DNA of 64,000 nucleotides from Thalassomonas actiniarum (lineage in GTDB: Bacteria; Pseudomonadota; Gammaproteobacteria; Enterobacterales; Alteromonadaceae): positions 558,001-622,000 of the forward strand of contig NZ_CP059735.1 in the NCBI RefSeq assembly GCF_000948975.2. Reading direction: 5' to 3'. The translations under genes and the position numbers were made by a program. Under the pieces are notes generated by a model that saw only the letters and a program-made list of their open reading frames with translations, did no database searches and was not told the origin of the DNA. Shown here piece by piece: positions 44,724 through 64,000 of this stretch (the first letter of the stretch is position 1; every line of letters starts with the position of its first letter).

Positions 44724-44742
44724 TTGAAGCGGAGAAGCTGGT

Positions 44743-47700: not shown

Positions 47701-47874
47701 TCGGTCTTTTACGGCATGGCCAGTGTGCTGGCGTTTGGTTTAGGTATAGGTACAGTGCTGACCTTAGGTGTGGTGCCTGTGTTGTATGCGATGTTCTTTA
47801 AAGTAACGATTAAAGTTGAACCAGATACCCGTAAATTTGAGGTTGAAAATTATAAGGAACAACAAGTTGCCTAA
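44743..47874 (+). CDS. RND efflux transporter permease
   Basis: A 1043-residue inner-membrane RND pump of the HAE1/AcrB type. Twelve membrane helices are arranged as 1+5 and 1+5 around two large periplasmic loops. The helix-4 proton-relay region is LIIALGLLVDNGIVIAEDFKRRLEQG with its Asp. ITTIMGLLPLIMDP is in the second half. The sequence is closer to the broad MexB-like/'AcrB family' than to heavy-metal CzcA pumps. Substrates are unknown. Operon with the preceding adaptor, closed by a strong terminator. Confidence 0.94.
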   Translation: MNITKISFEYRKSIFMLLALMLVNGVFAYFTLPAQEDPTTVVREAIVSTAYPGMSPERVEQLITKTLEKEIRKVPEVKKITSTSETGTSIIHVQIYDRYFNLEDIWQDVRNRVSEAAANLPEGTMTSRVNDSFGDVSVITLALTADGFNLGEMRDMAKHIRDLLYTVPGTKKVEVLGVQDERIFLESSSAKLAQLGISPQSIVNALQNQNIISSGGQVDTGDTSFIVEPSGNFNSLEEIAETRISIPGSQDSIALKDIVTVRRGYIDPPDEPAYFNGQPAIMFGVAMLENYNVPDFNTLVKQQVADIQATLPVGYQIGLATDQSVQVKEKIDGVSGNVLQTLIIVLLVVILFLGMRTGLIVGSIVPFVMLGTLAIMKVSGIKLEQLSLSTLIIALGLLVDNGIVIAEDFKRRLEQGTDRYQAMCRGGKELAMPLLSSSVTTILFFLPLMLAEHVAGEFTRSVSLVILITLLTSWVLAICVTPILCYLFIRVKPKERGKVTEPEQAGSAAKYYGYYENFLHWILSHKALFIGIVIAIFVLAMGGFKFVAQQFFPNSDRSQVLMYVDLPNGTSARQTNRQMKEIFAWLDDKQRFPEIQSYAGYSGFDGPRFVASLSPEDPADNKGFVVLNMAEAVTLEQLDPFVDKLHREMVETFPNVSARVKRMFVGPSDSSVIKIQVKGPDKDVLYAKAEEIMAVLHQLPNTKNVRTDWQNRIVKVKVQIDQQRARRAGVTSDDIASALQGYFDGVTVTEYREQDNIIPVVLQGKDEERFNLDRLRTVTVFSSSLGQGVPLFQVADFVPENQYSRIKRENMFRTISVLATNTAISAQDMQLAIDDKIQLLKADLPLNHSIEYDGVIVESAEAQQAMGTSVPMVVGLVIILLVMQFNSYRRAAIIVLTIPLSMIGTVGGLIIMDAPFGFMVTLGIYSLAGIIINNAIVLIDRIDIERRSGISDYQAIINACKTRLRPIAMTTITTIMGLLPLIMDPASVFYGMASVLAFGLGIGTVLTLGVVPVLYAMFFKVTIKVEPDTRKFEVENYKEQQVA

Positions 47875-47893
47875 GTTGAAGTAAATAAAAGTG

Positions 47894-47928
47894 AAGAGCC
47901 AGGATTATCTCCCTGGCTCTTTCTTTTT
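47894..47928 (+). terminator. Terminator of the RND efflux operon
   Basis: AAGAGCCAGG (47894-47903) pairs with CCTGGCTCTT (47912-47921) around an 8-base loop and is followed by TCTTTTT. It lies 19 bp after the pump stop codon. Confidence 0.9.
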
Positions 47929-48079
47929 CAGAAGCTGTAACATGTAATAAGCCTCTATAATTGGCAACTCATGTGATTGGCATTTGATAAATTATTCATC
48001 TACTTTTATTTAAGTTGTTGCGCTGCACTTCGTTATTGCTACTGACAGCTAATTAATAATCTAAAGGAATTAGATTTTC

Positions 48080-48694
48080 ATGATACAAAGGGAAGATGAG
48101 TACATTACTGTACAGGAATTAGAGAAAGACCTAATCTCAGCCACCGGTAATCCTGCTTTAGCCAAAAGACAAGCTCTGCAATATGCAATTATGTATCGAG
48201 GGGAAATCATTGATTCTGTTCGTTACCGGAAGGGCTTCATATCTAAAGATGACCTTATTCTTAGTCGCCATATCAGGTGGCATCATAATAAATCACATAG
48301 TCAAATGCTGGTGAAAAATATGCTTGCTGCAAACAGGGGTCCTCAAGCCGATAACACTGCGGCTCATCATATTGTTGCCTGGGATTGTATGAAAGCTGCC
48401 CGTTCCAGATTGCGCCTTGCGGCTTTTGGCATAGACATTGATCATGAAGCCAATGGTGTCTTTTTGCCTAGATTTATCAGGCATACTCCTATGCTGCCAA
48501 TACCCGATGCCAAGGCACACACCCAAACCCATACCAATAAATATTACCTGAATGTTGAGTATTTGTTAGATGAAACTATTGCTGAAGGGCTGGGTAGAGA
48601 AGGAGTTATTGAGACGCTCCGAGAGATAGGTGAAGAGCTGGAAGCTGGTAACTTTCCATTAAACGAATTAATATCTCAAAAAACTCAAAAGTGA
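48080..48694 (+). CDS. AHH-family nuclease (HNH/ENDO VII superfamily), probable toxin
   Basis: The C-terminal half carries the AHH signature NTAAHHIVAWD at about residues 93-103, followed by the helix RLRLAAFGIDIDHEANGVFLP and a distal HTQTHTNKYYLNVEYLL. These are the elements of the AHH branch of HNH/ENDO VII nucleases found in polymorphic toxins. The N-terminal 90 residues are charged and helical with no recognisable secretion or PAAR domain, so it looks like an orphan toxin module rather than a complete effector. The immediately following Imm11-like gene suggests toxin-immunity pairing. Length 204. Confidence 0.8.
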   Translation: MIQREDEYITVQELEKDLISATGNPALAKRQALQYAIMYRGEIIDSVRYRKGFISKDDLILSRHIRWHHNKSHSQMLVKNMLAANRGPQADNTAAHHIVAWDCMKAARSRLRLAAFGIDIDHEANGVFLPRFIRHTPMLPIPDAKAHTQTHTNKYYLNVEYLLDETIAEGLGREGVIETLREIGEELEAGNFPLNELISQKTQK

Positions 48695-48699
48695 TTAAT

Positions 48700-49281
48700 A
48701 TGGCTAAGTTTAATAAAGTTTATACGGTTAGTGTTGAGCCAGATGAATACTTATTATTGCAGGAAACCGTATTTGAGCAATCGGTACAGTTGAGCGAAGA
48801 TGATCTTCTGCTGTTTGACGGTAAAGAGAAAGGAAATGATTGGCGTACTTTAGGGGTTGATTGGTTAATGGCACCCGAAGATGGTGCTCTTAAAAAGCCG
48901 GATATTGCCGGTTTGGGTTCAAGCGTTTTTTGCGTCTCTGCACGTACGGCAGATCTTTTGAGTGAAGGTTTAAAAAGCGCCTGTGAGTTCTTACCCCTAA
49001 ATTTAAATGGTGAACCTTGGTTTGCCCTAAATATTTTAGGAGCCGAAGAAGCCATTGATGAAAAGTTGACACAATGGAATATGCGTAATGGCAAAGTGAG
49101 TCGGGTGAGGCGCTTTAATCGACTGGTACTTGATAAGCAAGCGATAGAACATACAGGGCTTTTTAGGGTAAATCGTGCCGGTCTTTTTACCTTTACAACC
49201 GATGCCGAAGGTAGTCTTTACGATATAGTGAAACAGCACCATTTAACCGGGTTAGTTTTTTCCGAGGTGGATGCGGTGTAG
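48700..49281 (+). CDS. Imm11/DUF1629-like protein, candidate immunity partner
   Basis: The protein resembles the Imm11 (DUF1629) family, with a central KKPDIAGLGSSVFCVSARTA block, LLSEGLKSACEFLPLNLNGE and a C-terminal HLTGLVFSEVDAV. Proteins of this family are usually encoded beside AHH or related nuclease toxins. I chose the ATG at 48700, 5 bp after the nuclease stop. A GTG at 48691 overlapping that stop (GTGA) is a good alternative and would imply translational coupling. An immunity role is inferred from family and position. Confidence 0.7.
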   Translation: MAKFNKVYTVSVEPDEYLLLQETVFEQSVQLSEDDLLLFDGKEKGNDWRTLGVDWLMAPEDGALKKPDIAGLGSSVFCVSARTADLLSEGLKSACEFLPLNLNGEPWFALNILGAEEAIDEKLTQWNMRNGKVSRVRRFNRLVLDKQAIEHTGLFRVNRAGLFTFTTDAEGSLYDIVKQHHLTGLVFSEVDAV

Positions 49282-49310
49282 CTAAAAGCAGGCATTTAGC
49301 TTTAAGTCTT
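49280..49310 (+). terminator. Weak terminator after the AHH-Imm11 pair
   Basis: AGCTAAA (49280-49286) pairs with TTTAGCT (49295-49301) around an 8-base loop and overlaps the stop codon. The tail TTAAGTCTTTTG is only moderately T-rich. Confidence 0.4.
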
Positions 49311-49634
49311 TTGTTCTCTTGTTAATGGTGTCGCTTTATTTCTATTGCGCTCCCTGACCATATTCTGTTTATGCACGTCATGGTAGCGCCATTGGCTTTC
49401 GTTCAGTTTATCTCAACGGTGCGGATCAATTTTTACTTTTATAATCCAGGATCTTGAAAAAAGTCTCAGAAAATTGAGATCCTTTTCTAGGGATCTTCCG
49501 AGCACAGTGATAGAATATTCTTCAATTATCGAAATTTCTAACTCGTCGAATGAGATACAGCTATCGACGAATTGAATCTAAGTCAGAAGCTAAGTCAGTA
49601 AGCCAATCTTACTGCATATTTATGGGATTTTTTC
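49282..49634. other. ssb upstream region with inverted repeats
   Basis: This gap of 353 bp should contain the ssb promoter. AGGATCT and AGATCCT form a 7-bp stem within 49449-49483. TCGTCGA (49543-49549) and TCGACGA (49564-49570) form another with a 14-base loop, and CTAAGTCAG occurs twice near 49578-49600. No CTGT-N8-ACAG LexA box was found by eye. No credible small gene was seen. Confidence 0.55.
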
Positions 49635-50327
49635 ATGGCCGGTGTTAACAAAGTAATCATTTTAGGTAATTTAGGTAAAGATCCTGAAGTACGTTTTATG
49701 CCTAATGGCGGTGGGGTAGCCAACCTGACCATCGCAACTTCAGAAACCTGGAAAGATAAGCAAACCGGTGAGCAAAAAGAAAAAACCGAATGGCACCGTG
49801 TGGTAATGTTCGGCAAGTTAGCCGAAATTGCCGGTGAGTACCTTAAAAAAGGCTCAAAAGTTTATATCGAAGGACAGCTGCAAACCCGCAAATGGCAGAA
49901 CCAGCAAGGTCAAGACCAGTACACCACTGAAATCGTTGTTCAGGGCTTTAACGGCACCATGCAAATGTTAGACAGCCGTGGCCAAGGTGGTGGCGGACAA
50001 GGCGGTGGTTTCCAGGGGCAGCAGCAAGGCGGCTTCTCTGGTGGTCAGCAGGCTCCACAACAGCAAGGTGGCTTCCAACAGCAAGCACCTAAACAGCAAG
50101 GCGGCTTCTCTCAGCAGGCAGCTCCACAACAGCAAGGCGGTTTTGCACAGCAGGCACCACAGCAACAAGCTCCTCAACAAGGCGGCTTCTCGGGTGGACA
50201 GCAGGCACCTCAACAGGGCGGTTTCCAACAGCAGCAAGGCGGTTTTGGTCAGCAAAACCAGCAACAAGCGGCTAAGGTTAACCCACAAGAGCCTTCAATC
50301 GACTTTGATGACGATATTCCGTTCTGA
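49635..50327 (+). CDS. ssb: Single-stranded DNA-binding protein
   Basis: The OB-fold domain (residues 1-112) starts [20 protein letters not shown] and contains [35 protein letters not shown]. The linker (about 113-218) is unusually long and built from repeated Gln/Gly/Phe units (QQQGGF type). The acidic tail [10 protein letters not shown] that recruits repair and replication partners is intact. 230 residues versus 178 in E. coli, with the excess in the linker. It is the last core gene before the island. Confidence 0.97.
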
Positions 50328-50415
50328 TTCGTATAAAGAACTATGTGTTAACTTAATCCAATAGGAATGTTTGATTATTTTATCATAAATTCAGGACGTT
50401 ATAACAGATTATCAA

Positions 50416-50452
50416 CCTCTCATAACTGTAAAGTTATGAGAGGTTTTTTTGT
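50416..50452 (+). terminator. ssb terminator, at the island's left boundary
   Basis: CCTCTCATAAC (50416-50426) and GTTATGAGAGG (50433-50443) form a perfect 11-bp stem with a 6-base loop and a run of seven T. The sequence becomes AT-rich immediately afterwards, so the island junction probably lies between here and 50548. Confidence 0.92.
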
Positions 50453-50547
50453 ATATTTAAAAAAGAGTGAACATAAAAAATCGTATAAATAAAATATTGT
50501 AGATTTAGCGTATTGAAACTATTCTTTTTGTAACGATAGGAGGTCTA
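50453..50547. other. Probable left junction (att) region of the genomic island
   Basis: A 95-bp, very AT-rich stretch lies between the ssb terminator and the first recombinase. It ends in an AGGAGG ribosome-binding sequence. No tRNA gene and no long inverted repeat were seen. The position next to a recombinase operon and the abrupt composition change imply that the integration site is here; the exact crossover cannot be fixed without the right end. Confidence 0.5.
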
Positions 50548-51738
50548 ATGAAAGTAGAAGTTATTGCTCATGAGTCTGGCGATTTATTACCTTTGCTGCT
50601 TGGCAATGATGATATGCCTATTCCTGCTCCAAATGAGTTCATTATTAGTCGAAGATCATTAAGCCCCAATACATTAGTCCGTAACCTTCGAGAGTTGTTA
50701 GTTCTCTACCTCTGGTTAGAAAAAGAGAAAATCGATTTAGATAGTAGGGTTAGAAGTGAGCGTTCTTTCAATGAAGCTGAAATTAAGGGCGGCTTGGTTG
50801 AGTTTTTGAAACGAGATCATGAAACAAGACGAAGTGTGAAAAAGATGGTTGTTACGCCATACACTTTTAATCAGCGTTTAACTACAGTTCGACAGTATTT
50901 GGCTTGGTGCTGTGATGTAGTTATTGGCACACTTCCTAACTCATCAAGTGAATATGAGCAAATTATTGATAATAAGAATCGCCTACTTGGCTTATTAGAA
51001 ACATCATTTATCAATGCTCCTCCTACCAACAGATCCCAAAAAAAAGGGCTTAATGGGAAAGAAATTGATTTTCTTTTATCCTTACTAAATCCTGAAAATA
51101 AAAAAGCTTACGGTAGGGATCCTGCGGTTCGTTATCGAAACTATATCCTGACAATGATAATGCTTTATTATGGTTTAAGGCCTGGTGAGTTACTCAGTTT
51201 AAGAGTTGAAGATGTTGAAATAGGGGCGATATCTTCTATACGAGTTGAACGCCGAAGTCCTGATCCGCTTGATACCAGAAAACCTCGGCCTCAAATTAAA
51301 CGTAATGGGCGAGTGCTACCAATTATTGATCCTCATTTCGCTAAAAATTTAGACACTTATATTACTGAATGGCGTGATGTTCTAGAAGATAAGTCAGCAA
51401 CTGAATCAAATTATTTGATCTTAAGTGATGAAGGTGAGCCATTGTCTCAATCCTCTGTTACTCAGCTCTATCAGTTATTGCGAAAGAAATATGCTGAAGA
51501 TCTGCCCCGTCATTTAACTGCAAAAGCTTTGAGGCATAGTTTTTCTTCTCATATGGAGAGAATTTTACGTAATTCGGGGATAGAGGAAGATAAGCGTAAG
51601 CAAGCACTAGCCTATTTAAGAGGTGACAGTAGCCTTTCATCGCAGGATGTTTATATTGCGCAAGAAGTTGAAGAGCAGGCTAATATTGCTCTGAAAAAAT
51701 ATCAGCGTGATTTAATCATGGAGGATGTACTTTGGTAG
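50548..51738 (+). CDS. Tyrosine recombinase, first gene of the island integration module
   Basis: A phage-integrase-type protein of 396 residues with an N-terminal core-binding helical domain and a C-terminal catalytic domain. Arg-I is R211 in YGLRPGELLSL; the second box is KALRHSFSSHM with R329 and Lys (K326) where His is usual; the LGH-type box is replaced by RGDSS; the nucleophile candidate is Y369 in DVYIAQ. The ribosome-binding site is perfect (AGGAGG). The next gene starts 7 bp before this stop. The unusual box residues suggest it works only with its partners or has altered chemistry. Confidence 0.85.
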   Translation: MKVEVIAHESGDLLPLLLGNDDMPIPAPNEFIISRRSLSPNTLVRNLRELLVLYLWLEKEKIDLDSRVRSERSFNEAEIKGGLVEFLKRDHETRRSVKKMVVTPYTFNQRLTTVRQYLAWCCDVVIGTLPNSSSEYEQIIDNKNRLLGLLETSFINAPPTNRSQKKGLNGKEIDFLLSLLNPENKKAYGRDPAVRYRNYILTMIMLYYGLRPGELLSLRVEDVEIGAISSIRVERRSPDPLDTRKPRPQIKRNGRVLPIIDPHFAKNLDTYITEWRDVLEDKSATESNYLILSDEGEPLSQSSVTQLYQLLRKKYAEDLPRHLTAKALRHSFSSHMERILRNSGIEEDKRKQALAYLRGDSSLSSQDVYIAQEVEEQANIALKKYQRDLIMEDVLW

Positions 51739-53327
51739 ATGATACATCGCTCAATAAATTAATAGATGACCATGGTTGGTTAGATACTCCCCAGTCCATT
51801 ATCACGCGCGAAGGAAAAGAGGTTGATTCATCAAGTGAGCGCTGGCATTTACCGTACTCAATATGGAAATCGACGTCATTAGACTTCAATAAAATAATTA
51901 ACCTAAAAATAAGGTGGTCAGTAAAATCATATGTTAGGGATAGGTTGGAAAGAAGCTCAGTTCACGCCGGCTATTCCGTTTTTCAGCATGTCTATACTGA
52001 ATTCCTGAGATATGCCGCAGATTTTGATATTCAGCATGGTAAACAGTTTAAAGAGCAGCTTATTTCTCTTATAGAGTCCAGAATCTCTGTCACAAGAAAA
52101 GAGCACAGGCTTTGGGCCTTATATCGTCCAATACAGTGGTATATCTATTGTGCTGAAAACTACCCGGAACTTGGTTTTTGTCCTGCCTATGCTATGGAGT
52201 TGGAAGGGATGAGCATCCCAGGGAATCCCAAAGGCGAAGCCGTGCGAATGGAGGATCCCGATAAGGGGCCATTACATCATTCCTTAGAGTTACCTTTGCT
52301 TATAGCAGCAATGAAAAATGATACAAGTAAGGAACTTAAGCATTTACAAGAAAAAGTAGCTGTTGCATTGTCTATAGCGTTTGGTCGAAATCCGGCAAAC
52401 TTGACTTACTTACGTGAAGAAGACTTCATTGATTTAACTCCTGAAGCTGAAGAACGGTGCTATATCTTAAAAATTCCAAGAATCAAGAAAAAGCAACTAA
52501 GCCCACGTGATGATTTTCTTGATGAGTACTTGGCGCCCTTATATGCAAACTACATTATTGAATTGATAGATAAGAATGCTGCGATAAACACAGAACTACA
52601 GTTTAACAATAGAGTTATTCCTAACCCTAAACCTCTATTTATCAATCAAAATGGAAATAGAGCAGCACTGTTATCTAGTGACTTTGAAAATGCTTATAAT
52701 GTGACGAGTGCAGATATAACAGGGCTGTTAAAGAGTTTTGTTGCAAGGCATAACCTCATATCACCTGTCACTAAAAGCCTCTTGCAAGTAAATACAAGGC
52801 GTTTGAGATACACGCTTGCGACAGGGTTAGCAGCTGAAGGAATTAGTAAAAAAGAACTTGCTAGGATCTTAGATCATACAGACACTCAGCATGTTCTTGT
52901 CTATTTTGAAATGGCCGGTAAGGTTGTTGAGCATTTAGACAAAGCAGCAGCAAAAGGCTTATCGCGTTATCTTCAATTTTTTAAAGGTAAGGTTATTGAT
53001 AGTGATGATGAAGCTGTTAATGGCGAACGTGCTGATAAGCACATTTCATACATTGATGAAGAAAATCCTACCGACCAGGAAAACATCGGTGTTTGTGGCG
53101 AATCCAGCATTTGCCATTTAGATCCACCTTATTCATGTTACCTATGTCCTAAGTTCCAACCTTATCGCCATGCAGGTCATGAACATGTACTTGAGTGCTT
53201 ATTGCAAAACAGAGAGAAAAGGTTAGAAAAATACGAAAATGCACGCTTAGGCATTCAATTAGATGAAGTTATTGCCGCAGTTGCCCAAGTAACTGAATTA
53301 TGTGCGGAGGGTAACAATAATGGCTGA
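51732..53327 (+). CDS. gmtY: Tyrosine recombinase with C-terminal Cys/His motif (GmtY-like)
   Basis: A 531-residue recombinase. Arg-I lies in AFGRNPANLTYL, a basic strand RIKKKQ may supply the catalytic Lys, the second box is NTRRLRYTLATGLAAEG, the third is ARILDHTDTQ with His, and Tyr is in VLVYFEMAG. After the catalytic domain comes a Cys/His-rich segment, CHLDPPYSCYLCPKFQPYRH and HEHVLECLLQ, a possible zinc-binding unit as in Tn554 TnpB-like proteins. TTG start with GGAGG 8 bases upstream, inside the preceding gene. The GMT name rests on gene order and size and on memory of that family, so treat Y versus Z as tentative. Confidence 0.75.
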   Translation: MVDDTSLNKLIDDHGWLDTPQSIITREGKEVDSSSERWHLPYSIWKSTSLDFNKIINLKIRWSVKSYVRDRLERSSVHAGYSVFQHVYTEFLRYAADFDIQHGKQFKEQLISLIESRISVTRKEHRLWALYRPIQWYIYCAENYPELGFCPAYAMELEGMSIPGNPKGEAVRMEDPDKGPLHHSLELPLLIAAMKNDTSKELKHLQEKVAVALSIAFGRNPANLTYLREEDFIDLTPEAEERCYILKIPRIKKKQLSPRDDFLDEYLAPLYANYIIELIDKNAAINTELQFNNRVIPNPKPLFINQNGNRAALLSSDFENAYNVTSADITGLLKSFVARHNLISPVTKSLLQVNTRRLRYTLATGLAAEGISKKELARILDHTDTQHVLVYFEMAGKVVEHLDKAAAKGLSRYLQFFKGKVIDSDDEAVNGERADKHISYIDEENPTDQENIGVCGESSICHLDPPYSCYLCPKFQPYRHAGHEHVLECLLQNREKRLEKYENARLGIQLDEVIAAVAQVTELCAEGNNNG

Positions 53328-55329
53328 TGGACGTTCGAACAGAAAAAATAAAGTCATTGCTTTTATCGATCGCTTAGCTCAAGACCGAAGGGAAAATTTC
53401 AAGGCTTTAATAGCAAAAGCAAAAATGTTGGAGCTTGAAGGGTTTGAAGAAATTAATTGGTCAGATTCTACCTGGACTGTGAAGGCTGGAAGATTAATTA
53501 AGCTTACCGGCAAGAATACAACATCCTCTTCGTTTAATTTTAACTACTCCCCATCGCTTGGAGGGGGAGCCTTGTATGGAGAATGGGCTGATATAGGGAA
53601 AGCATTATTTACGTTAAGATTTCATCGGAAACATCAGTCGGCCCCAAATCAGAGAAATTTTATAACTGCTTTGGGGTATATGGCTTATTCAGCAAATCAG
53701 TTAAACCTTGAGTTAGCCAGGCTAACACCTGAAGTACTTGATTCAGCATGCAAAGCAATCACTCGTGATTATAGTGAAGGGGTTACATACAACCTTCATA
53801 AGGCTGTTGCGGAAATTGCGGGGCATTTCGATGCGAATGGGTTATGCCGAATTATCTTTAAGTACAAATATGCGAAGATGAAGCGGCCTAAAAACGCTGG
53901 TGATGTCGGCCACAAAAGGTTGGATGGCCCTAAAACATTAGAAACAAAAAGCGATAAGTTGATAGAACCAGCCGTTTTTAAAGTCATAGGGGAGTTGTAT
54001 CAAAACGTTCCGAAAGATCATAAGTATCGTTTCTATGTGCTTTTACTAACGCTTCTTGCTTGCCTGGGACGTCGTTTCAGTGAAATTTCATTGCTACCCC
54101 AACAAAAAATTAAAACAGACATTGATGGCAGGAAGTACATTGAATATTTCCCAAGAAAGATATCTCAAGGAGATGTGTTTACCCCTAAACGTAAACTGTA
54201 CATGCCGAACGAAGTTTTACCGATAGTGCGTGATGTTATAGGTGAGCTGGATGAGTTGTGTGCTACTGCGAGAGATAGTGCTAGTAGAACACAAAAGCTA
54301 AAGGGGGCCGATTTAAGTTTTTTATTAAAGTTTGATGAGAATCAGTTCTTTCACAAAAAGGATCTAAAAATGATTGGGTTAAATCCTCAGTTATTAGATT
54401 CAACCGGTTGGTTCCGGAAAAATGGTTATGCCTTTGCAAATGAAAACAAACCAGATAAAACAGGGAAGGTATCATCAAGAAAGGTCTACTTCACAACAAA
54501 AGAAGGACTCATTAATTATTGCGAGAAAGATTATTTTGAGGGATTGATTGAGGCGATCCATATTGATCAAAATAAAAATGAGTATTTTCTCAAGGATCTT
54601 TTGGTTGTTAGATATCAGGGGATTTCAAGTGGCATGTACTCACAATGGATTGCAACTCAGTGCACTCATTCTATGATGACTACATTTCTAAGGTATTTCC
54701 CTGAGCTTGCTAAGACATATGCATCATCAAGTATAGAGGTTGATTTTACTAGCCATCATTTCAGGCACACATTAAATACTCTACTAGATGAAGGTGGCCT
54801 GAGTGATCTTCTTCAAACTGAATGGTTTGGCCGTTCTAACCCTAAAGATACCAAAGCCTACCAACATACGAGCCGAGAAAAGCGGGCATTAATACTACGT
54901 GAAGATATTAAAAATGGGCGTGCTGGTGGAAAGCTTGTGGAACAGGTTAAGGCTGTTCCTGTAACGGTCCAGGATGCTGTGTTAAAAGCCCGTGTACAGG
55001 CTGTGCATGATGTTGGTTCCGGAATATGTGTCCATAATTTTGCTCAAACGCCATGTGAGCGTCATTTACAGTGCTCTGCTGAGTGTGATGATTATGTATG
55101 GGCAAAAGATGATAAGGGACGCTTAAACGAGCAGAAAAGACAGCTTGCGCTAACTACACTGGCACGGGATACGGCTGAAGAGCGTTCAACAAAAAGAAAG
55201 CCCAAAAAGAGTAGTGACTGGATAGCGCATAACGAGAAGAAAATAAATACTCTGACAGCTCAGCTGAAAGATAACGGTGTCGTTGATTTTGATCCTAGAC
55301 AATATTTGGAGGAATTAGCTGGTGACTAA
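53320..55329 (+). CDS. gmtZ: Large tyrosine recombinase/integrase (GmtZ-like)
   Basis: A 669-residue protein with the best preserved second box of the three recombinases: SHHFRHTLNTLLDEGG. Arg-I is in CLGRRFSEISLL, the GH box is WFGRSNPKD and the nucleophile candidate is in TKAYQHTSREKRA. A C-terminal Cys cluster follows (CVHNFAQTPCERHLQCSAEC). The ATG at 53320 has GGAGG 9 bases upstream and overlaps the previous stop by 8 bp. An in-frame start at 53302 would precede that ribosome-binding site. The naming caveat of the previous gene applies. Confidence 0.75.
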   Translation: MADGRSNRKNKVIAFIDRLAQDRRENFKALIAKAKMLELEGFEEINWSDSTWTVKAGRLIKLTGKNTTSSSFNFNYSPSLGGGALYGEWADIGKALFTLRFHRKHQSAPNQRNFITALGYMAYSANQLNLELARLTPEVLDSACKAITRDYSEGVTYNLHKAVAEIAGHFDANGLCRIIFKYKYAKMKRPKNAGDVGHKRLDGPKTLETKSDKLIEPAVFKVIGELYQNVPKDHKYRFYVLLLTLLACLGRRFSEISLLPQQKIKTDIDGRKYIEYFPRKISQGDVFTPKRKLYMPNEVLPIVRDVIGELDELCATARDSASRTQKLKGADLSFLLKFDENQFFHKKDLKMIGLNPQLLDSTGWFRKNGYAFANENKPDKTGKVSSRKVYFTTKEGLINYCEKDYFEGLIEAIHIDQNKNEYFLKDLLVVRYQGISSGMYSQWIATQCTHSMMTTFLRYFPELAKTYASSSIEVDFTSHHFRHTLNTLLDEGGLSDLLQTEWFGRSNPKDTKAYQHTSREKRALILREDIKNGRAGGKLVEQVKAVPVTVQDAVLKARVQAVHDVGSGICVHNFAQTPCERHLQCSAECDDYVWAKDDKGRLNEQKRQLALTTLARDTAEERSTKRKPKKSSDWIAHNEKKINTLTAQLKDNGVVDFDPRQYLEELAGD

Positions 55330-55798
55330 ACGTTTCAGAAGAATGAGTGAATCAGATATTAAAAGTATTATTGTTGATCTAGACCGTTGGGCACTTGGCC
55401 AGTTGGGGGCAAAATTGACCTGGGCAATACTAGAAGAACGTTTTGGATATAGCAGGCAGTCAATGCAGGCTAAGACAGAAATAAAAGCGGCTTATGATAA
55501 TGCTAAATATGCATTATCAGGAGGTCTTGTAAAAACGAAAGAACAAACTTCAAAAGAAAACGAACAACTTCTTTGTGAAATTGAGCGCTTGAAAAAAGAA
55601 GTAGAAGAATATAAGCGGAAAGAGTCTCTTTGGAAAAAACGCTGGCAATGTATTGCCTTTCATATAAGACAAAAGGGCATGCAGGTTCAGGTTATTGACC
55701 AAGAAATTCCAAAGGGTGAAGACTCTCCAACAGAAAGAGAAACTACAAATATATTAAGGCCATTTGACAAGGTCATACCACCGTCAGGGAGAGTTTAA
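55322..55798 (+). CDS. gmtX: Small coiled-coil partner of the recombinases (GmtX/TnpC-like)
   Basis: A 158-residue protein. The N-terminal half has a helix-turn-helix-like stretch (LTWAILEERFGYSRQSMQAK). A coiled coil follows at about 75-105 (NEQLLCEIERLKKEVEEYKR) and then a basic segment ending FHIRQKGMQ. This matches the small third or fourth protein of Tn554-type and GMT modules, thought to assist or orient the recombinases. GTG start overlapping the preceding stop by 8 bp, with GGAGG upstream. The cargo gene starts 3 bp after its stop. Confidence 0.75.
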   Translation: MTKRFRRMSESDIKSIIVDLDRWALGQLGAKLTWAILEERFGYSRQSMQAKTEIKAAYDNAKYALSGGLVKTKEQTSKENEQLLCEIERLKKEVEEYKRKESLWKKRWQCIAFHIRQKGMQVQVIDQEIPKGEDSPTERETTNILRPFDKVIPPSGRV

Positions 55799-55801
55799 AT
55801 A

Positions 55802-58800
55802 ATGAGTAATGAAGTCAAAAAGCAAAGTAATCCATTTTCCACCGGAGGTGGCGGTGTAAATTTTGAAACACGGGTTCAAGCTGCTTTCGCTGTTTCGTTG
55901 TTGGCACAATCTTGTGTGCCCTGTTTATCACAAAATATGAGAGCCAAAGAACTGAAGTTTCAGAACAAATATGATGGTGCAAATACTGATGATTTTGTCT
56001 TATTAGCATCAGATAAAAACTATAATGAAAGTCGGCTTTATGCTCAAATTAAACATGAAATAACTATAAGCAAATCAAAGGACTCAATGTTTGCGGAAGT
56101 TATTAATAGTGCATGGAAAGATTTTAAAAATACTAATTTTAGTTTAGAAAATGATTCAATTGCATTGATAACAGGGCCATTACAGAAACAAGATGTTATC
56201 AATACGCTTCCTATTCTTGAATGGGCTAAATATTCATCAAGTTCTGCAGAATTTATTAAAAAATCACAGACTGAGGGTTTTACCAGTAAAGCAAAAGTTA
56301 GCAGATTAGAGATATTCAGAATTCAGTTAACTAATGCGAATGCAGGAGTCGAAGTAACAGATGATGAGTTATGGAAGTTTTTAAGAGTTTTTCAGCTAAT
56401 TTCTTATGATTTAGATGCTAAATATTCAATAGTTGCAAGCTTATTGTGTTCCCTAATTCAATGTTATTCAGAGGAATCACCATCTCTTGTTTTATCTAAA
56501 TTAGTTACTTGTGTTCAAGAGTTTAACCAGAATGCCGGGTCTTTAACTCAAGATAATGTGCCTAAAGAAGTTAAAGAATTATTTGAGTTATCTAGCAAAG
56601 TTAATTTTGAAAATGACTTTTTAAAATTGAGAGAGCGTGGTGACCATATTTTTGAAGGAATCTCTAACACTATTAATGGTTTTCATATTGATAGAAGCGA
56701 GCAGTTAGCAAAAATATCAGCACTCTATGTTGAAAGTGATTTTCTTTTCGTAACTGGTGCTAGAGGTGTTGGTAAATCAGGAATAGTAAAAGATTTTATC
56801 TCGACTAAAAATAAAAATGTTCCTGTTTTCTATTTAAGAGCTGAAGATTTAGATAAAAGCCACCTTAACGATGTTTTTGCAACTATCGGAATGAAGTCCT
56901 CTTTGGGGCAAATTGAAGGATATTTTTCCTTACTTAATGAGAAAATACTTGTAATAGAATCTTTAGAAAAAGTTTTAGAACTTACATATCAAGATGCCTT
57001 TATTGATTTGCTTCAATACTTAAAAAGACAAACAGGGTGGACCATTATTGCTACGGGGCGTGATTATGCGTATCAACAACTTACTTTCAATTATCTTCAA
57101 CCTAGTGGCATTCAATTTAACAGTGTAAATATTGAAGGGCTTACTAAGGTGCAAATTGAACTGGTTTGTGCACATGTTCCCGAACTTGGAGGTTTAATAT
57201 CCAATAACTCGTTAGTTGAATTACTTAAAATACCATTTTTTATCGAAATTTCAGCTAGAGCCATTGGTAATGGGGCATTGTTTAAATCAGGTGATACCGA
57301 AATCGACTTTCGAAATACAGTTTGGGCGACAGTGATTTCTAAGGAAGTGGATAGAAAGGCGGGGATGCCAGCTAAACGAAGATCGACTTTTATTGAAATC
57401 GCAAAGCAACGTGCAAAAAAAATGGTATTTGGTATTCGTGATACTGAGTTTGACCCTGAAGTCGTTTCGAAATTAGAAGAGGATAATCTGATTCACCGTG
57501 ATCAGCGGTTGTCAACTATAAGCCCAATACATGATGTATTGGAAGATTGGGCATTAGAAGAATACATTGAGAGCGAATACATCGATAGTTCGCATAATTT
57601 GGAAAATTTCTTGTCAAGTATAGGAAGCGAACCTGCAATAAGCAGAGCGTTTAGATTATGGCTATACAGAAGGTTGAAATTTGATGATGAAATTAACGAG
57701 TTTGTCGAAGAGATATTAACCGCTGATGATATTGAAAGCTACTGGAAGGATGAAACCATTGCCGCAATTATGCAAAATGATTCACCTGAAAGCTTTTTAT
57801 ATACGTTAAAATCTCAACTCTTAAAAGATGATTGCTCACTATTGATTAGGTTTTGTTTTATATTAAGGATAACCTGTCAGAGACCAAACTCAATACATAA
57901 TGATTTACTTATCAAAGATGAAAAATCTGGCATATTAAAATCTTTGTTCTTGCAGCCCTTTGGTAATGGTTGGGAGTCGCTATTTAACTTTATTTATGAA
58001 GCACGATACGATTTGAGTAATTCAATGCTTACTCATGTCGTTGAGGTAATTGATGAGTGGTGTGGCCTCATTAATATATATGATGACTTGCCTCAACCAT
58101 CTGAAAAGGTTGGCTTGTTGGCTTTATGGCTGCTTGAACCAGTTAAAGATGCTTATCGTAATGAGGAGCGAAGAAAGAAAATACTCAATGCTTTGCTGAA
58201 AGTTTCACCTGTAATAGAAACCGCTTTTGATGAGTTAATGAGCCAAGACGTTTTTATCTCAAAGATGAACCCTCGAAGGTTAAGTTATGTTGATGAACTA
58301 ACTAGCTTAGCAATTGTTGGTGCAAATGTACCAATGCTTTGCAAACGCAAGCCTGAATTCATTATTAAACTTTCGCTACATGAATGGTTAAAAGAAGACC
58401 AAGAAGAAGGTCAAGATGATTTTTATTCATATCGAAGTATGGATGTCGATGATTATTTTGGGCTTGATAAAGATAGAGATCTTTTCCCTGCTAGCGGGGC
58501 AAAAGGGCCTTTTAAATATCTTCTCCAGTTTCATCCTAAATTAGCTTTAGACTTCATTATTAAGCTCTGTAACGTCACAGCTCAGAAGTATTCTGAATCA
58601 GAGTTTGCTGCTCCCTCAAAGGATGAGGAAAGCCTACCCTTCGCCAATGAAGCTGTAGTAAATCTGATTCATTTAAAGCTCAATGATGGAGCGATAGTCA
58701 AGCAATATGCATCACCACATCTTTGGAAAGGCTATAGGGGACACTCTACGTTACCTTATCTGCTTCAGTGCGCGCTTATGGCGTTAGAGAATTGGTTAGT

Positions 58801-60916
58801 GGAATATGCAAATGGCTGTGGTGAAAATAACCAATTGGACTGGATTTATGATTACTTGTTACGGTCTAGCAACTCGGTATTACCCACATCTGTTTTAGCG
58901 TCAGTGGCAATTGGTTTTCCTCGCAAAGTAGGTACGGCAGCATATCCAATATTAAAAGCTCCAGAGTTATATTATTTGGATTTGCAGCGTATGACGGCAG
59001 AAATGGGGGGGAGTGAGGCGAACTGGTTTGGTTTAGACAGAGATATAATGTCTAAAATTTATATAGAAGAAAGAAGGGAAGCTGCACTCAGGCCATGGAG
59101 AAAAGAGTCATTAGAGACACTATTAACAAGAATTCAATTTGAAACAGAATTGAGGGATAGTGCAATTAAAATTGTTGATGAACTGATAAACGAAGCATCT
59201 ACTCGAAATGAAAAATATCTTCGATATATGGTGCACCGGGTTGATACAAGGACTTGGGAAGCTATTGAAGACAAGGAAAACAATCGAGTATTGCTTCAAA
59301 ATGTGTCTGAACTACCGACAGATTTAAAGAAAGAACAACAGGAATTTAATGAAAAACATGAAGCCGATAATACTGTAACTAGTTTACATTTATGGGCAAA
59401 AAAGTTATTCGAAGATAAATTATTTAAAAAAGAATATATTGCTTCATATGGTGACGCATTAACGTCAGCAAAAGAATTACTCTGCTCGCTTCAAAAAAGT
59501 GAAATTCATAATTTTTCAGAAATGGCTATTGGTACAATCACAACTGTTGCTGCTGTTTGTGTTCGTGATGATCTGATCAATTTAAGTGACGAAAACAAAG
59601 AGTGGTGCCTCAAAGTCATCCTTGAATCAATATTCATGCACGCCGATGTTATGGAAGGGACAACAGCTCATGATAAGACGGATTATTATGGCTCTGGTGC
59701 GTGTGCTTTTGTGTTACCTAAGTTATTTGACTTAGATCTTGATGCAGAGCAAAAAGAGCTTTTGAAACATGCTTTAGCTACAGCGTTAACACATGAAAAC
59801 CTCAACGTTAGTGCTTATGCTGCTAAAGGAGTAAGAGAGTTTCTTTGGTCAAGAGGCCCTGAGTTAGCATCTTTCTGCATAAGTGGAATTGTTGAGTATG
59901 CCAGACTTCGAAGGGACAATAGTATGGCTCGAAGATTCTACCATCTACAAGGAGAAGAGTTAGAAGAAGCTCATGAAAATTGGAATGGGCTAATAACTAC
60001 ATTTCGCAATAAATTGCTTGAAGGTAGTTTTAAGCTATCGGTTGATGACATTTCTTTGGAAAGCCATTCATCATGGTTTCTTCACTTGCCCATGTTAATG
60101 GTTCCACTTAGCACTAAAGATAGCAGCCAAATTCAGTTAATTAAAAAGTTAGTTAATTTTGTTTTTGATACAGAATACTCAGATCATCGTACAAATGAAG
60201 ATGAAAAAATAAATCATGATATAAAAAAGCAAATTCAAGACTGTTTGACAGAACATGTGATTAACTCAAGAAACAATGAGTACCTTCCATTTAAAGATTT
60301 GATACTTTTAGGCTGTACAAAAGCACCAAGCTTTATATATTCGTTGAAGTTGTTTTTTGATGTCGCTATGGAAAAAGAGGATGATTATGATTCTATATGG
60401 TCATTATGGACGTTGATAGCTCCAGAGGTGCATAAGATAGCTTTGAAGGATGTAAATGATAGGTACATGGGCTTACAGAATGATTTAAATAAGCTACTTC
60501 GTGGAATGTTGTATGCCGATAGTCCTTGGCAGGGGCATGAAAATGAGAGAAAGGACATGGAACGAGGGGCGAATTATTTGTTAGAATTTGCAAAGCAATC
60601 TGCGAATAATAGCCATGTATTTGAAGCGTTATCATCCTTAATTTATAACTTTTATGACGTTTTCTTTGACAAAGGTATCCAATTACTAGCCCTAAAGTTT
60701 ACTGAAAATTCACAACTAATAGCCAAGCAAATAAATACAGCTTATTACTTGGAGATGTCGATAGGGCGATACTTGCAGATTGAAAACAGAGGTACTTTAA
60801 GTCGAAAAATGTACAACATTTGTCTTAATTTACTCACTGGTATTGTTGAAACAGGCTCTGCAAGGGCTTATTACCTTCGAGAAAATTTAATTCGTTCCCG
60901 TAAAATTTCTGTGTAA
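55802..60916 (+). CDS. Giant nuclease-STAND NTPase, candidate anti-phage effector
   Basis: I do not recognise an exact named family. Residues about 15-230 form a restriction-like domain: a Gly-rich GGGGVNFETRVQAAF start (E22), D63/D64 in NTDDFVLLA, and Q82-x-K84 in LYAQIKHE, i.e. an E...D...QxK version of PD-(D/E)xK as in Cap4-like nucleases. A P-loop NTPase follows: Walker A G319-S326 (GARGVGKS), a Walker-B-like KILVIES at 381-387 and TIIATGRD at 414-421 resembling the sensor strand of STAND/NACHT proteins. The remaining ~1100 residues are helical with no motif I can name, as expected for a target-sensing array. Avs-like logic (bind phage protein, oligomerise, cut DNA) is inference. Gap of 3 bp to the recombinase module. 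Confidence 0.8.
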   Translation: MSNEVKKQSNPFSTGGGGVNFETRVQAAFAVSLLAQSCVPCLSQNMRAKELKFQNKYDGANTDDFVLLASDKNYNESRLYAQIKHEITISKSKDSMFAEVINSAWKDFKNTNFSLENDSIALITGPLQKQDVINTLPILEWAKYSSSSAEFIKKSQTEGFTSKAKVSRLEIFRIQLTNANAGVEVTDDELWKFLRVFQLISYDLDAKYSIVASLLCSLIQCYSEESPSLVLSKLVTCVQEFNQNAGSLTQDNVPKEVKELFELSSKVNFENDFLKLRERGDHIFEGISNTINGFHIDRSEQLAKISALYVESDFLFVTGARGVGKSGIVKDFISTKNKNVPVFYLRAEDLDKSHLNDVFATIGMKSSLGQIEGYFSLLNEKILVIESLEKVLELTYQDAFIDLLQYLKRQTGWTIIATGRDYAYQQLTFNYLQPSGIQFNSVNIEGLTKVQIELVCAHVPELGGLISNNSLVELLKIPFFIEISARAIGNGALFKSGDTEIDFRNTVWATVISKEVDRKAGMPAKRRSTFIEIAKQRAKKMVFGIRDTEFDPEVVSKLEEDNLIHRDQRLSTISPIHDVLEDWALEEYIESEYIDSSHNLENFLSSIGSEPAISRAFRLWLYRRLKFDDEINEFVEEILTADDIESYWKDETIAAIMQNDSPESFLYTLKSQLLKDDCSLLIRFCFILRITCQRPNSIHNDLLIKDEKSGILKSLFLQPFGNGWESLFNFIYEARYDLSNSMLTHVVEVIDEWCGLINIYDDLPQPSEKVGLLALWLLEPVKDAYRNEERRKKILNALLKVSPVIETAFDELMSQDVFISKMNPRRLSYVDELTSLAIVGANVPMLCKRKPEFIIKLSLHEWLKEDQEEGQDDFYSYRSMDVDDYFGLDKDRDLFPASGAKGPFKYLLQFHPKLALDFIIKLCNVTAQKYSESEFAAPSKDEESLPFANEAVVNLIHLKLNDGAIVKQYASPHLWKGYRGHSTLPYLLQCALMALENWLVEYANGCGENNQLDWIYDYLLRSSNSVLPTSVLASVAIGFPRKVGTAAYPILKAPELYYLDLQRMTAEMGGSEANWFGLDRDIMSKIYIEERREAALRPWRKESLETLLTRIQFETELRDSAIKIVDELINEASTRNEKYLRYMVHRVDTRTWEAIEDKENNRVLLQNVSELPTDLKKEQQEFNEKHEADNTVTSLHLWAKKLFEDKLFKKEYIASYGDALTSAKELLCSLQKSEIHNFSEMAIGTITTVAAVCVRDDLINLSDENKEWCLKVILESIFMHADVMEGTTAHDKTDYYGSGACAFVLPKLFDLDLDAEQKELLKHALATALTHENLNVSAYAAKGVREFLWSRGPELASFCISGIVEYARLRRDNSMARRFYHLQGEELEEAHENWNGLITTFRNKLLEGSFKLSVDDISLESHSSWFLHLPMLMVPLSTKDSSQIQLIKKLVNFVFDTEYSDHRTNEDEKINHDIKKQIQDCLTEHVINSRNNEYLPFKDLILLGCTKAPSFIYSLKLFFDVAMEKEDDYDSIWSLWTLIAPEVHKIALKDVNDRYMGLQNDLNKLLRGMLYADSPWQGHENERKDMERGANYLLEFAKQSANNSHVFEALSSLIYNFYDVFFDKGIQLLALKFTENSQLIAKQINTAYYLEMSIGRYLQIENRGTLSRKMYNICLNLLTGIVETGSARAYYLRENLIRSRKISV

Positions 60917-60940
60917 CTATTTTTAGGCAGGTTTTAAATC

Positions 60941-62053
60941 GTGTTAAGTGTTCAGGCTACGTACTCAAAAATCAGAAGAGTGTTTTTTACAGCGTGTTCA
61001 AATATTTATCTTCCTGTCTCCTTTTCCCGGCTTTCGCTTGATCAAAAGTTTGCGGTTGTTGGTGGGGCCGCAGGTATTTTATCATCGGTGATATATTCAG
61101 GATTATGGATTACTGATAATACTGAGGTTTTTAAGCAACACAAAATTCAAGCTAGTGTAATAAGGCCGCAACAAAGTGTTGGATTAAACATTGATGCAAC
61201 ACTGGGAACCTATATTATTTTTGAAAATAAGGGAGATTACCCTGAAATTGTGACTCGTATTAGAGCTGAGCTTTACCTGCCATTTAGATTGGAATCAGTT
61301 ATTCTTGGTAGCGAAGTACCTGATATCTTAGCGCTACAAGTTCAAGAAAATATCTCAAGTGATGGTGATCGGAGGGTATCCGATTTCCTTAAAGAGGGAG
61401 GGTACATTAAAAAAAGCTCGTCTCGACTTCCTAGCTATGTTGAACCTCCAGAATATAAAAATATTTTAGCGTTTGGTAAGAAATTCAAACAATATCGATA
61501 TATATTACAGGGGTGTAATGAGAGCCTTGTTATTACTAATAATAAGCCGTACAACATTGTTACTAAAGCATCATTTTTCAAATTTCCTAATCAATTAAAC
61601 AAAACAATTAAAAATAATTTTTTACTTGTCGAAACCGGTTTATTTGAGGACACAATTGTTGGGGTGTTGTCTGATGGGGATGTTAAGATTGAATATTATG
61701 TCGGTGAATTATTGATAGTAGTAGAGTTTATTAATCCGGACGGCAGAGTCGACAGTCGTGTTGTTGATGCGACAAATGTTTATCTAGTTGCATCGAAAAG
61801 CAAAAAGTATTTAAAGTTCAGTGATTGGTGGAATGGCTTCCCTGGTCATTTTGAATTAACGACAGAATTAAGTAAGAGCGATTTAATAAATGGACGTAAC
61901 AAAAAGGTCGAATTTAAACGAGCAAAAGGAGCCGATCTTAAAGATTATGTTATTTCAATTGCTGATATACCTATGGGGATGCCGACGCCTTCATTTTTTG
62001 ACAGCCAAGACCATAGCCTTTGTGAGTTTGAACAGACAATTATTTCTAAGTAA
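60941..62053 (+). CDS. Unknown single-pass membrane protein, cargo partner of the STAND gene
   Basis: No family is recognised. The protein (370 residues, GTG start at 60941 with AGGCAGG upstream) has a basic N-terminus, one membrane helix at about 37-57 (AVVGGAAGILSSVIYSGLWI), and a soluble, beta-rich region of about 300 residues with no Cys/His metal motif or P-loop. The soluble part could be extracytoplasmic or cytoplasmic; the charge distribution does not settle it. It begins 24 bp after the STAND gene on the same strand, so the two are probably co-expressed. A membrane sensor, anchor or effector role is possible. Confidence 0.7.
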   Translation: MLSVQATYSKIRRVFFTACSNIYLPVSFSRLSLDQKFAVVGGAAGILSSVIYSGLWITDNTEVFKQHKIQASVIRPQQSVGLNIDATLGTYIIFENKGDYPEIVTRIRAELYLPFRLESVILGSEVPDILALQVQENISSDGDRRVSDFLKEGGYIKKSSSRLPSYVEPPEYKNILAFGKKFKQYRYILQGCNESLVITNNKPYNIVTKASFFKFPNQLNKTIKNNFLLVETGLFEDTIVGVLSDGDVKIEYYVGELLIVVEFINPDGRVDSRVVDATNVYLVASKSKKYLKFSDWWNGFPGHFELTTELSKSDLINGRNKKVEFKRAKGADLKDYVISIADIPMGMPTPSFFDSQDHSLCEFEQTIISK

Positions 62054-62224
62054 TAAGTATCAAGCTGGCTTAGTGTAATCTCTTTTCTTTCCAGGGGGGA
62101 ATTGTTTTTATTGGTGTTTTTGTTGTGAAAGGTTTTTTATATAAATCAATAATTAGTTATTACACTTGAATTGTTGTGACAATATTAAACTGGTGATAAA
62201 TAAGATAAGGAAAAATCTCTAAGA

Positions 62225-63109
62225 ATGCATATGGAAAATGTAAGAATTAAAAGTTTAGGTCAATATTTAGATATTGTAGCGGATTACGATTTTGATTTAT
62301 GGTACCGGGGAGTTGGAAGCAGAGATTTCAAAACACTTCCTCAGGCTTCCTGGATGGGTATAAATCCTGATATCCAAAATACCATGGCGTACCGGTTTCT
62401 AAGAGATTATGGGAAATATGTTGAAAGGGAAGAAAGTAATCCCTGGAAAACTTATTCATTGATGCAGCATCATGGATTACCAACTCGCCTATTGGATTGG
62501 TCAAGATCGCCTTTAGTTGCTCTATATTTTGCCTTAACACAAACCATAGTAGATATTAAAAATACCAGAAGAGGTATTTGGGTACTCAATCCTTTAAGGA
62601 TGAATAAATTAACCACGGGAGCTGAGTTGGTATATTGCCCTTCGCAAATGGGTAAGAGAAGAATATACAATTTAGCGGAGTATAAGGAATCAATATATCC
62701 CGCTGCTGGTGGTGAAATCTGGAAATCTAAATATGGTGAAGCCTTAAAAGAAGACGGAGTATCTTTTCGTTCATTAGATGCCTTTTTACCATATTGCTTA
62801 TTTCAGCTTGATCCGCTCAATACAAAAAAAATTGATACATGGAATGTGCCTATAGCAATAGAAGCTGTTTCAACAGATGGTAGAATGAATTCTCAACATA
62901 GTGCGTTTACCATTCACTCCGACTCCTCTAAATCAATTGATGAATTATTTCCTAAAGAATCTGGTGTTATCAGCTTTATTGAAATTGACAATGATTCAGT
63001 AATAGCACTTATGTACCAATTACATAAAAGTGGTATTCATAGTGAAAGTATTTATTGTGATCTTGATTCGCTTAGCCAGCGCATACGATTTGAGATGTTA
63101 GGTGTGTAG
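62225..63109 (+). CDS. FRG-domain protein
   Basis: The FRG domain is plain: LWYRGVGSRDFKTLPQASW (here Y-R-G in place of F-R-G) at about residues 25-43, then SLMQHHGLPTRLLDWSRSPL and VALYFALT (about 79-107). The remaining ~180 residues include AFLPYCLF and a terminal region with SFIEIDND. FRG domains occur in bacterial defence and toxin loci, but their chemistry is not settled; an ADP-ribosyltransferase-like fold has been suggested. A 171-bp AT-rich gap precedes it, so it probably starts its own transcription unit. An in-frame ATG at 62231 is an alternative start. Confidence 0.88.
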   Translation: MHMENVRIKSLGQYLDIVADYDFDLWYRGVGSRDFKTLPQASWMGINPDIQNTMAYRFLRDYGKYVEREESNPWKTYSLMQHHGLPTRLLDWSRSPLVALYFALTQTIVDIKNTRRGIWVLNPLRMNKLTTGAELVYCPSQMGKRRIYNLAEYKESIYPAAGGEIWKSKYGEALKEDGVSFRSLDAFLPYCLFQLDPLNTKKIDTWNVPIAIEAVSTDGRMNSQHSAFTIHSDSSKSIDELFPKESGVISFIEIDNDSVIALMYQLHKSGIHSESIYCDLDSLSQRIRFEMLGV

Positions 63110-63168
63110 GTTAATGCTCTAAATGAATATTCCTAAAATTATTTTTTAAAGTCAAAGTAGGTAGTTTG

Positions 63169-63621
63169 ATGAAGCTATATCGAGGCGTTAGTGAGCAAGT
63201 TCCTGATGGAATACAGGATAATCCATACATTGTTCTGCCAAGGCAACCACGAAACTCGGATCAGAATGTTCATGAAGTTGCTGATGAGTGGTTTGCACAA
63301 GATTTTAAAATTAGGGCTAGAAGCCAAACGATTTTTTGTAGTACAGATATAGAGCAAGCAAAAGAATATAGCGGTGACTACGGTTATCTTCTGGAAATTA
63401 CAATACCGGATGGAAAGGCTTGCACTTTAATTTTTAGTGAAGAAGTTAATGATTTCTTAGAAATTGAGATAGATATTAGTGATACAAAAGATGAGCAACA
63501 AATTACTAACTGGCTACAAAGTAAGGCATACCAAAGTGTTCATAAACCTGATGATCTACCTAAAGGTTTTGAAGGAGAAGTTATGTTGTATTGTGAACAA
63601 TATGAGGTCAGAAACATCTGA
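63169..63621 (+). CDS. Small protein with ADP-ribosyltransferase-like motifs
   Basis: A 150-residue protein beginning MKLYRGVSE. The order of short motifs matches the R-S-E pattern of ADP-ribosyltransferases: Arg in LYRGVS near the start, TIFCSTDIEQAKEY in the middle (Ser-Thr motif) and FEGEVMLYCEQYEV near the end (Glu). This is pattern recognition by eye and needs structure-based confirmation. I chose the ATG at 63169 rather than the overlapping TTG at 63166. It lies 59 bp after the FRG gene and overlaps the next gene by 20 bp. Confidence 0.6.
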   Translation: MKLYRGVSEQVPDGIQDNPYIVLPRQPRNSDQNVHEVADEWFAQDFKIRARSQTIFCSTDIEQAKEYSGDYGYLLEITIPDGKACTLIFSEEVNDFLEIEIDISDTKDEQQITNWLQSKAYQSVHKPDDLPKGFEGEVMLYCEQYEVRNI

Positions 63622-64000
63622 TATGGATGGTAATAAATTATTGTTAAGTAAACTTGGTTTGCTAAATATTGATGGCTATAAGTATGAAAAATCGCTCGGA
63701 GGAGGAAGCGCATTAAGCAGCTTGTATGTAAAAGGAGATGAAAGAGTTGTTTTTAAATTTCTCATTGCCCCAAGAAATGATATTGAGCTAGAAAGGTTCA
63801 AACTTGAGTATTCTGTTCTTGAAAAAAACAAACTAAATTATGTTCAAGGTGGAGAAGGATTATCAGTTGAACAGCTATTCCATGGTCCAATTGAAAGTTA
63901 TCCATTACCTTATATTGTGGAGCCATTAACGCACAAAACATCTAATATGGTGAGTTATTTTGGCTATAAATATGAAGAGGGAGTTTTACTGAGTGATGTT
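63602..64000 (+). CDS. Protein-kinase-like protein, N-terminal part (cut by window edge)
   Basis: A frame opens at ATG 63602, inside the preceding gene, and stays open for 133 codons to the window end. ATG 63623 is the other possible start. The N-lobe of a Ser/Thr-kinase fold is visible: a glycine-rich loop SLGGGSALSSLY, VVFKFLIAP with the candidate ATP-binding Lys, ELERFKLEYSVL with the candidate helix-C Glu, and a hinge-like FGYKYEEGVLLSDV. The catalytic loop lies outside the window, so activity cannot be judged. Confidence 0.68.
   Translation, partial: MRSETSDMDGNKLLLSKLGLLNIDGYKYEKSLGGGSALSSLYVKGDERVVFKFLIAPRNDIELERFKLEYSVLEKNKLNYVQGGEGLSVEQLFHGPIESYPLPYIVEPLTHKTSNMVSYFGYKYEEGVLLSDV

Follow-up and report, generated by a model that had tools for sequence, protein, structure and literature searches.

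The window, a 64,000-nucleotide stretch of Thalassomonas actiniarum DNA, carries on its forward strand, at 55802..60916, an ATG-initiated open reading frame encoding 1704 residues, whose product gives a single match in the 7.49-Mb genome. As the original prediction held, the frame is real: with homologues 71–77% identical in seven other gammaproteobacterial loci and dN/dS values of 0.07–0.14, it is far from a chance ORF. The protein is composed, in order, of a predicted Cap4/LmuA-like PD-(D/E)XK nuclease domain with its linker (residues 1–290, 55802..56671), a STAND NTPase (residues 291–600, 56672..57601) and a long helical Avs4-type sensor (residues 601–1704, 57602..60913), all on the forward strand. 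It is a divergent relative of Avs4; the defence type is a known one, of which this protein is a variant.

A GInt-type island at the end of ssb

Behind ssb, at 50548–55798 on the forward strand, lie three tyrosine integrases and a 158-residue protein. The first integrase (50548..51738) matches Pfam Phage_integrase at 8.7e-13, the second (51732..53327) matches the site-specific integrase model NF041502 at 1.7e-80, with 271 bits against a cutoff of 350, and the third (53302..55329) matches Phage_integrase at 3.4e-4, below the family cutoff. The small fourth protein (55322..55798) is recognised by its position and by homologues that precede Avs4 in four other loci (L035, L042, L043 and L046). We label these genes ginA to ginD by gene order, not by comparison with published gin sequences. 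The small gene stops at 55798, and the ATG of the 1704-residue frame follows after the 3-base gap that had been predicted. The locus has the GInt gene plan, in which three integrase genes and a small fourth one are followed directly by cargo, and the gene is, as had also been proposed, mobile-element cargo: the first cargo gene of a GInt-type island of about 14.5 kb at the end of ssb. PMC5385486 places the beginning of GInt cargo at the stop codon of ginD and gives the end of ssb as the insertion site of several GInts.

An attL candidate, CCGTTCTGATT, lies over the 3' end of ssb (50319..50329), and its partner, CCGTTCTAATT, lies at 64840, about 840 bases past the window end; both island ends carry CCGTTCTRATT. 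In one of three genomes of the same genus (G370) the site is empty, with the counterpart of position 50325 joined to that of 64840, which sets the length of the island and its end beyond the window; together with the sequence shared by both ends it indicates insertion at a specific site, flanked by direct repeats that are short and imperfect. The other two genomes do not plainly show an empty site: in G371 the counterpart of the DNA that follows ssb begins to match some 9 kb away, and in G369 there was no match beyond ssb in the stretch compared. The ssb-side flank (44000–50340) gave nothing against plasmids, and neither Rfam on 48000–64000 nor a tRNA scan of the window returned a hit. The three integrases, the small fourth gene, the cargo start at its stop, the insertion at the end of ssb and the imperfect repeats all resemble GInt or Tn6571-type islands, with no notable difference seen from the portions of PMC5385486 and PMC10121019 that describe them; the latter, in its excerpted text, already presents GInts as defence carriers.

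Of 59 relatives searched, a set that counts the window's genome, 6 have a GinB-like integrase; those outside the window's genome are 28–32% identical to the window's own. Among 88 Avs4-type loci, 74 of which span at least 2 kb upstream, gin-like genes precede the Avs4-type gene in only the four named above; the link between GInts and Avs4 is thus recurrent but not general. Avs4 genes on E. coli plasmids also lie directly behind ssb, three integrases and a small gene. One of the four loci is on plasmid pA117-CTX-M-8, where the order is ssb, integrase, integrase, a 677-residue protein, a 139-residue protein and canonical E. coli Avs4. In the E. coli plasmid stretch L134:1839-12598, canonical Avs4 follows immediately after ssb and its gin-like genes, the arrangement of the window, although the two Avs4 proteins are only 22–25% identical. 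The 677-residue GinC-like gene adjoins avs4 in at least 23 of the 34 listed E. coli and Salmonella rows and lies 4–9 kb away in 2; the remaining 9 fall outside the 60 of 82 records listed, and the 34 rows are mostly near-copies rather than independent cases.

Downstream, the island continues with a 370-residue protein (60941-62053, forward strand) that by eye has an apparent N-terminal membrane segment; it gave nothing in Pfam, PADLOC or NCBIfam up to E = 1 and had no homologue in the plasmid collection. Further cargo comprises an FRG-domain protein (62225-63109, forward strand; Pfam 9.2e-19), which matches the PADLOC candidate PDC-S15 at 1.2e-37, and a protein-kinase-like gene (Pfam Pkinase 4e-14) that begins at 63479, runs to 64000 and beyond (L120:1479-2699) and is the last ORF of at least 100 residues on the island's right-hand side.

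An Avs4-type sensor joined to a different, predicted nuclease

From residue 279 onward the protein is homologous to Avs4 throughout. The PADLOC Avs4 model aligns to residues 279–1697 over model positions 172–1570 of 1570 (E 2.5e-176), the only Avs model that PADLOC lists for the protein at E values up to 1; NCBIfam Avs4 (NF041815) aligns to residues 281–1696 with 652.9 bits (E 8.9e-196), below its equivalog cutoff of 1500 bits. A single-sequence phmmer search of the PDB at E <= 0.001 returned only 8dgf, E. coli Avs4 with phage portal (E 1.1e-83, residues 292–1697). A profile built from the rows of the sensor-model alignment reached 8dgf at 6.7e-261, but since E. coli-type rows are among them, the value from the single sequence is the fairer one. 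The Walker A motif, GARGVGKS, occupies residues 319–326 (56756..56779, forward strand), and its lysine, K325, is present in 71 of 71 aligned rows. The STAND NTPase and the complete helical sensor are homologous to those of Avs4 (AVAST type 4; PDLC02169 in PADLOC) and colinear with the E. coli protein over residues ~280–1697.

An AlphaFold model of residues 600–1704, made from 63 rows (the window's protein and 62 of 63 relatives, one near-copy being omitted), has a pLDDT of 86.0 and a pTM of 0.75 and bears out the predicted helical C-terminus. In a Foldseek search with this model two 8dgf chains lead, at 3.5e-35 and 2.4e-34 with a TM-score by query of 0.73, followed by helical-repeat proteins from 2.8e-5. 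Avs3 (8dgc, with phage terminase) shares the plan of nuclease, STAND NTPase and sensor, but the 50 fold matches listed for the sensor include no Avs3 chain. The original prediction had regarded the roughly 1100 C-terminal residues as unassigned; profiles, PDB sequence match and fold assign them to the Avs4 type. Identity to E. coli Avs4 is 22–25%, and this, together with the 653 bits against a cutoff of 1500, means that trigger specificity may have moved.

The N-terminus is where the protein departs from E. coli Avs4. The first ~280 residues had no sequence match to it in PADLOC, NCBIfam or phmmer searches, positions 1–169 of the NF041815 profile being unmatched and the phmmer alignment to 8dgf beginning only at residue 292. 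E. coli-type proteins have an N-terminus of about 200 residues (190–210), described as Mrr-like; judged by sequence, and for the fold by the model of the window's protein, the 1704-residue protein does not carry that nuclease. The best matches are therefore to a characterised Avs over residues ~280–1697 (83% of the protein), which removes the claim of a new Avs-like family for that part; they do not extend to the first ~280 residues, so a variant effector remains.

Searches of Pfam, PADLOC and the PDB with the N-terminus alone and with a 38-row alignment (the window's protein and 37 hand-picked relatives) gave no nuclease family: no Pfam nuclease appeared up to E = 0.1 and no significant sequence match to Cap4 or LmuA. 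The nuclease was thus placed by fold comparison only. The model of the N-terminus (pLDDT 88.2, pTM 0.81) has a helix at 17–35, strands at 47–53, 65–70 and 76–84, a helix at 96–109 and a strand at 119–124, which is the order of a PD-(D/E)XK core; with LmuA and Cap4 it shares this fold and a strand carrying QxK. Seven PDB chains match it at E <= 0.001, all LmuA (Lamassu) or Cap4 (CBASS), the best of each kind being LmuA 9hr5 at 4.1e-6 and Cap4 6wam at 2.5e-4; Hachiman 8zue (2.7e-3) and Avs3 8dgc chain B (4.7e-3, rank 20) are weaker. TM-scores by query for these four are 0.41–0.49, and the best-ranked LmuA and Cap4 chains, which have other partners, reach 0.44–0.49 with 9–11% identity. Going by the predicted model, the assignment is one to the superfamily and not of close kinship. 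The Cap4 SAVED domain had no Pfam match up to E = 1, the C-terminus being an Avs4-type sensor, and viral structures gave nothing at E <= 0.001 with the nuclease model.

Within this predicted fold the expected residues are conserved. Invariant columns in the 38 rows include E22, Q54, D63, D64, Q82 and K84. E22 (55865..55867), a predicted active-site residue in the first helix, is present in 38 of 38 rows and, when the alignment is enlarged, in 58 of the 59 rows of Cap4 type, the one gap reflecting the start position chosen by the ORF caller in L043. The predicted metal ligand D64 (55991..55993) and both residues of the Q82-x-K84 motif (56045..56053) occur in 59 of 59 Cap4-type rows, all of these positions being on the forward strand. 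The Avs-type architecture, the nuclease N-terminus and the STAND centre of the original prediction are consistent with these results, as are the roles it gave to two lysines, K84 being that of the conserved Q-x-K and K325 that of Walker A.

The PADLOC candidate PDC-M54A (models PDLC04702 and PDLC04700) weakly matches the N-terminal 296 residues, at 5e-7 and 1.1e-6, and its models match 8 and 3 of the 38 rows at 0.01; in the relatives L033 and L037 the match continues into the STAND part, but the full-length window protein gives no listing up to E = 1. DUF626_VIII of PADLOC is matched by 12 of the 38 rows, the best at 6.3e-10 and not the window's protein. A DUF4547 signal in the N-terminus (E 0.0011–0.0048), below the Pfam cutoff, was taken as chance. 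On the Hymenobacter plasmid L032 a 414-residue gene (L032:8540-9784), unrelated to the gene after the window's Avs4, follows the Avs4-type gene; as a guess, it may be a PDC-M54 partner.

Relatives, effectors and selection

A scan of the contig collection matched 505 stretches, of which 270 are relatives, and the best 80 were kept; this ranking favours proteins like the 1704-residue one, so the effector proportions in this set do not estimate those of the whole family. Among these 80, seven gammaproteobacterial loci (Neptuniibacter, Aliivibrio, Yersinia, Pantoea, Sessilibacter, Motilimonas and Raoultella) are 71–77% identical in the best segment, which covers all or nearly all of the protein, two Pseudomonas loci are 50–51% identical, and members of the Cyanobacteria, Nitrospirota, Acidobacteriota, Clostridia, Planctomycetota, Desulfobulbaceae and other groups are 39–44% identical. 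The combination of Cap4-like nuclease and Avs4-type sensor is found across many phyla. When NF041815 was run against 369 genomes from the same class, it recovered the window's protein and only short matches in 31 other genomes, most at the P-loop end (E 1e-6 to 1e-3), the strongest being G279 (3.3e-10, a 1869-residue frame) and G046 (5.5e-8, a 1431-residue frame); 1 of 14 control genomes gave a match. The viral contig collection held no relative of the protein and the phage collection one partial match, and 4000 bases of DNA of a Raoultella homologue found nothing in E. coli genomes.

The window's protein, 8 plasmid loci and the 80 contigs made 89 rows, of which 18 were dropped because the core or N-terminus was too short. 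Reading the alignment of the remaining 71, we labelled 59 N-termini as Cap4-type, 9 as E. coli-type, 2 as protease-type and 1 as short. On a core tree from a quick search, with several long branches and a midpoint root for drawing only, these four labels need 3 changes, the minimum, so that in this sample the effector type tracks the lineage of the core and has rarely been swapped. Nuclease and sensor are, by their sequence identities, co-inherited: across the 59 Cap4-type rows, N-terminal and sensor identities correlate (Spearman 0.72, a value reached in 0 of 500 permutations), and both parts name the same nearest neighbour in 37. Of 18 comparisons by region with six close relatives, 2 had saturated synonymous sites and 16 gave a dN/dS of 0.07–0.14, which indicates purifying selection in all three modules; the values are rough, since dS exceeds 1 in most comparisons.

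Two Avs4-type proteins have a trypsin-like N-terminus, L036:1670-7673 on a Haliscomenobacter plasmid and L111:4250-10422 in Flavobacterium panici. The former matches Pfam Trypsin_2 at 1e-5, just below the cutoff, and the latter is assigned by similarity to it (5e-20). A gene for an MBL-fold protein precedes each (Lactamase_B 8e-5 and 5e-6), which makes them, as far as the excerpted text of PMC12799240 describes it, nuclease-protease pairs of that kind on an Avs4 core.

Proposed mechanism and alternatives

The 1704-residue protein is very probably an Avs4-type nuclease sensor. We consider it likely, with good though somewhat lower confidence, that it acts as a single-gene antiphage sensor that oligomerises and cuts DNA; this estimate concerns the mechanism with the trigger left open and so overlaps with a reading in which the trigger is not the portal. 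In the resting cell the protein would be an inactive NTPase. Its C-terminal solenoid would bind a protein of the phage packaging machinery, for which the portal, bound by E. coli Avs4, is the likeliest candidate, and this binding would lead to ATP-dependent oligomerisation. Avs3 and Avs4 form tetramers, and the same is assumed here by analogy. The oligomer would bring the nuclease domains together for double-stranded DNA cleavage, which would stop infection and probably kill the cell. Although E. coli Avs4 carries another effector, the Cap4-like one should give the same kind of output, and GInt islands would be one of several routes by which the gene spreads among bacteria. Portal binding, oligomerisation and DNA cleavage are modelled on the published mode of Avs1–4, whose nuclease effectors, in the excerpted text of PMC12931631, act after recognition of terminase, portal or Ksap1 and bring about altruistic death.

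By analogy with E. coli Avs4, the phage portal is the trigger we favour, with moderate confidence. The same architecture might instead recognise another phage protein, the large terminase or a different one, which appears unlikely but deserves weight: sensor identity to E. coli Avs4 is just 0.11–0.34 per 100-residue window (n = 11, residues 601–1700), the protein sits on a well supported branch of the core tree separate from the E. coli type, and Avs5 clades have been suggested, in the same excerpts of PMC12931631, to answer distinct activators. Yet homology spans the whole sensor to its last residues, and portal-bound 8dgf is the best fold match by a wide margin. The new phage trigger of the original prediction is possible, and nothing in the analysis points to one.

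Two further readings fare worse. That the 370-residue and FRG genes are obligate partners in a multi-gene system would fit their shared strand, the gaps of 24 and 171 bases and the FRG match to a defence candidate, but the next three genes (370-residue, FRG and 151-residue) have no homologue beside the 88 Avs4-type loci, 66 of which span at least 1.5 kb downstream; we regard such a partnership as highly improbable and dropped these genes as system members. The original proposal of an entirely new Avs-like family, its sensor unrelated to known ones, for which the missed NCBIfam strict cutoff is the sole point, has almost no probability left, being refuted by the Avs4 homology in PADLOC, NCBIfam and the sequence and fold of 8dgf.

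The main Avs4 paper is reportedly that of Gao and colleagues in 2022. The pairing of an Avs4 sensor with a Cap4-like effector may already be in print, and we claim novelty for this variant only modestly; effector-module exchange among defence systems is already published, as the excerpted PMC12799240 sets out. Taken jointly, it is a doubtful proposition, and one we offer tentatively, that the Cap4-nuclease branch is the main and older one, spread over many phyla and an archaeon (one metagenome-assembled genome) and with a shifted trigger, that E. coli Avs4 arose by a later effector swap, and that the sensor is a platform for at least three effectors, namely the Cap4-like nuclease, the E. coli-type nuclease and the trypsin-like protease with an MBL-fold partner.

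The 1704-residue protein opens no new defence class. It shows that Avs4-type proteins, even divergent ones, occupy one and the same position in GInt-type islands at ssb, and it suggests that different effectors can be combined with a lasting Avs4 sensor; the widespread Cap4-type branch lets one ask whether portal recognition is family-wide.
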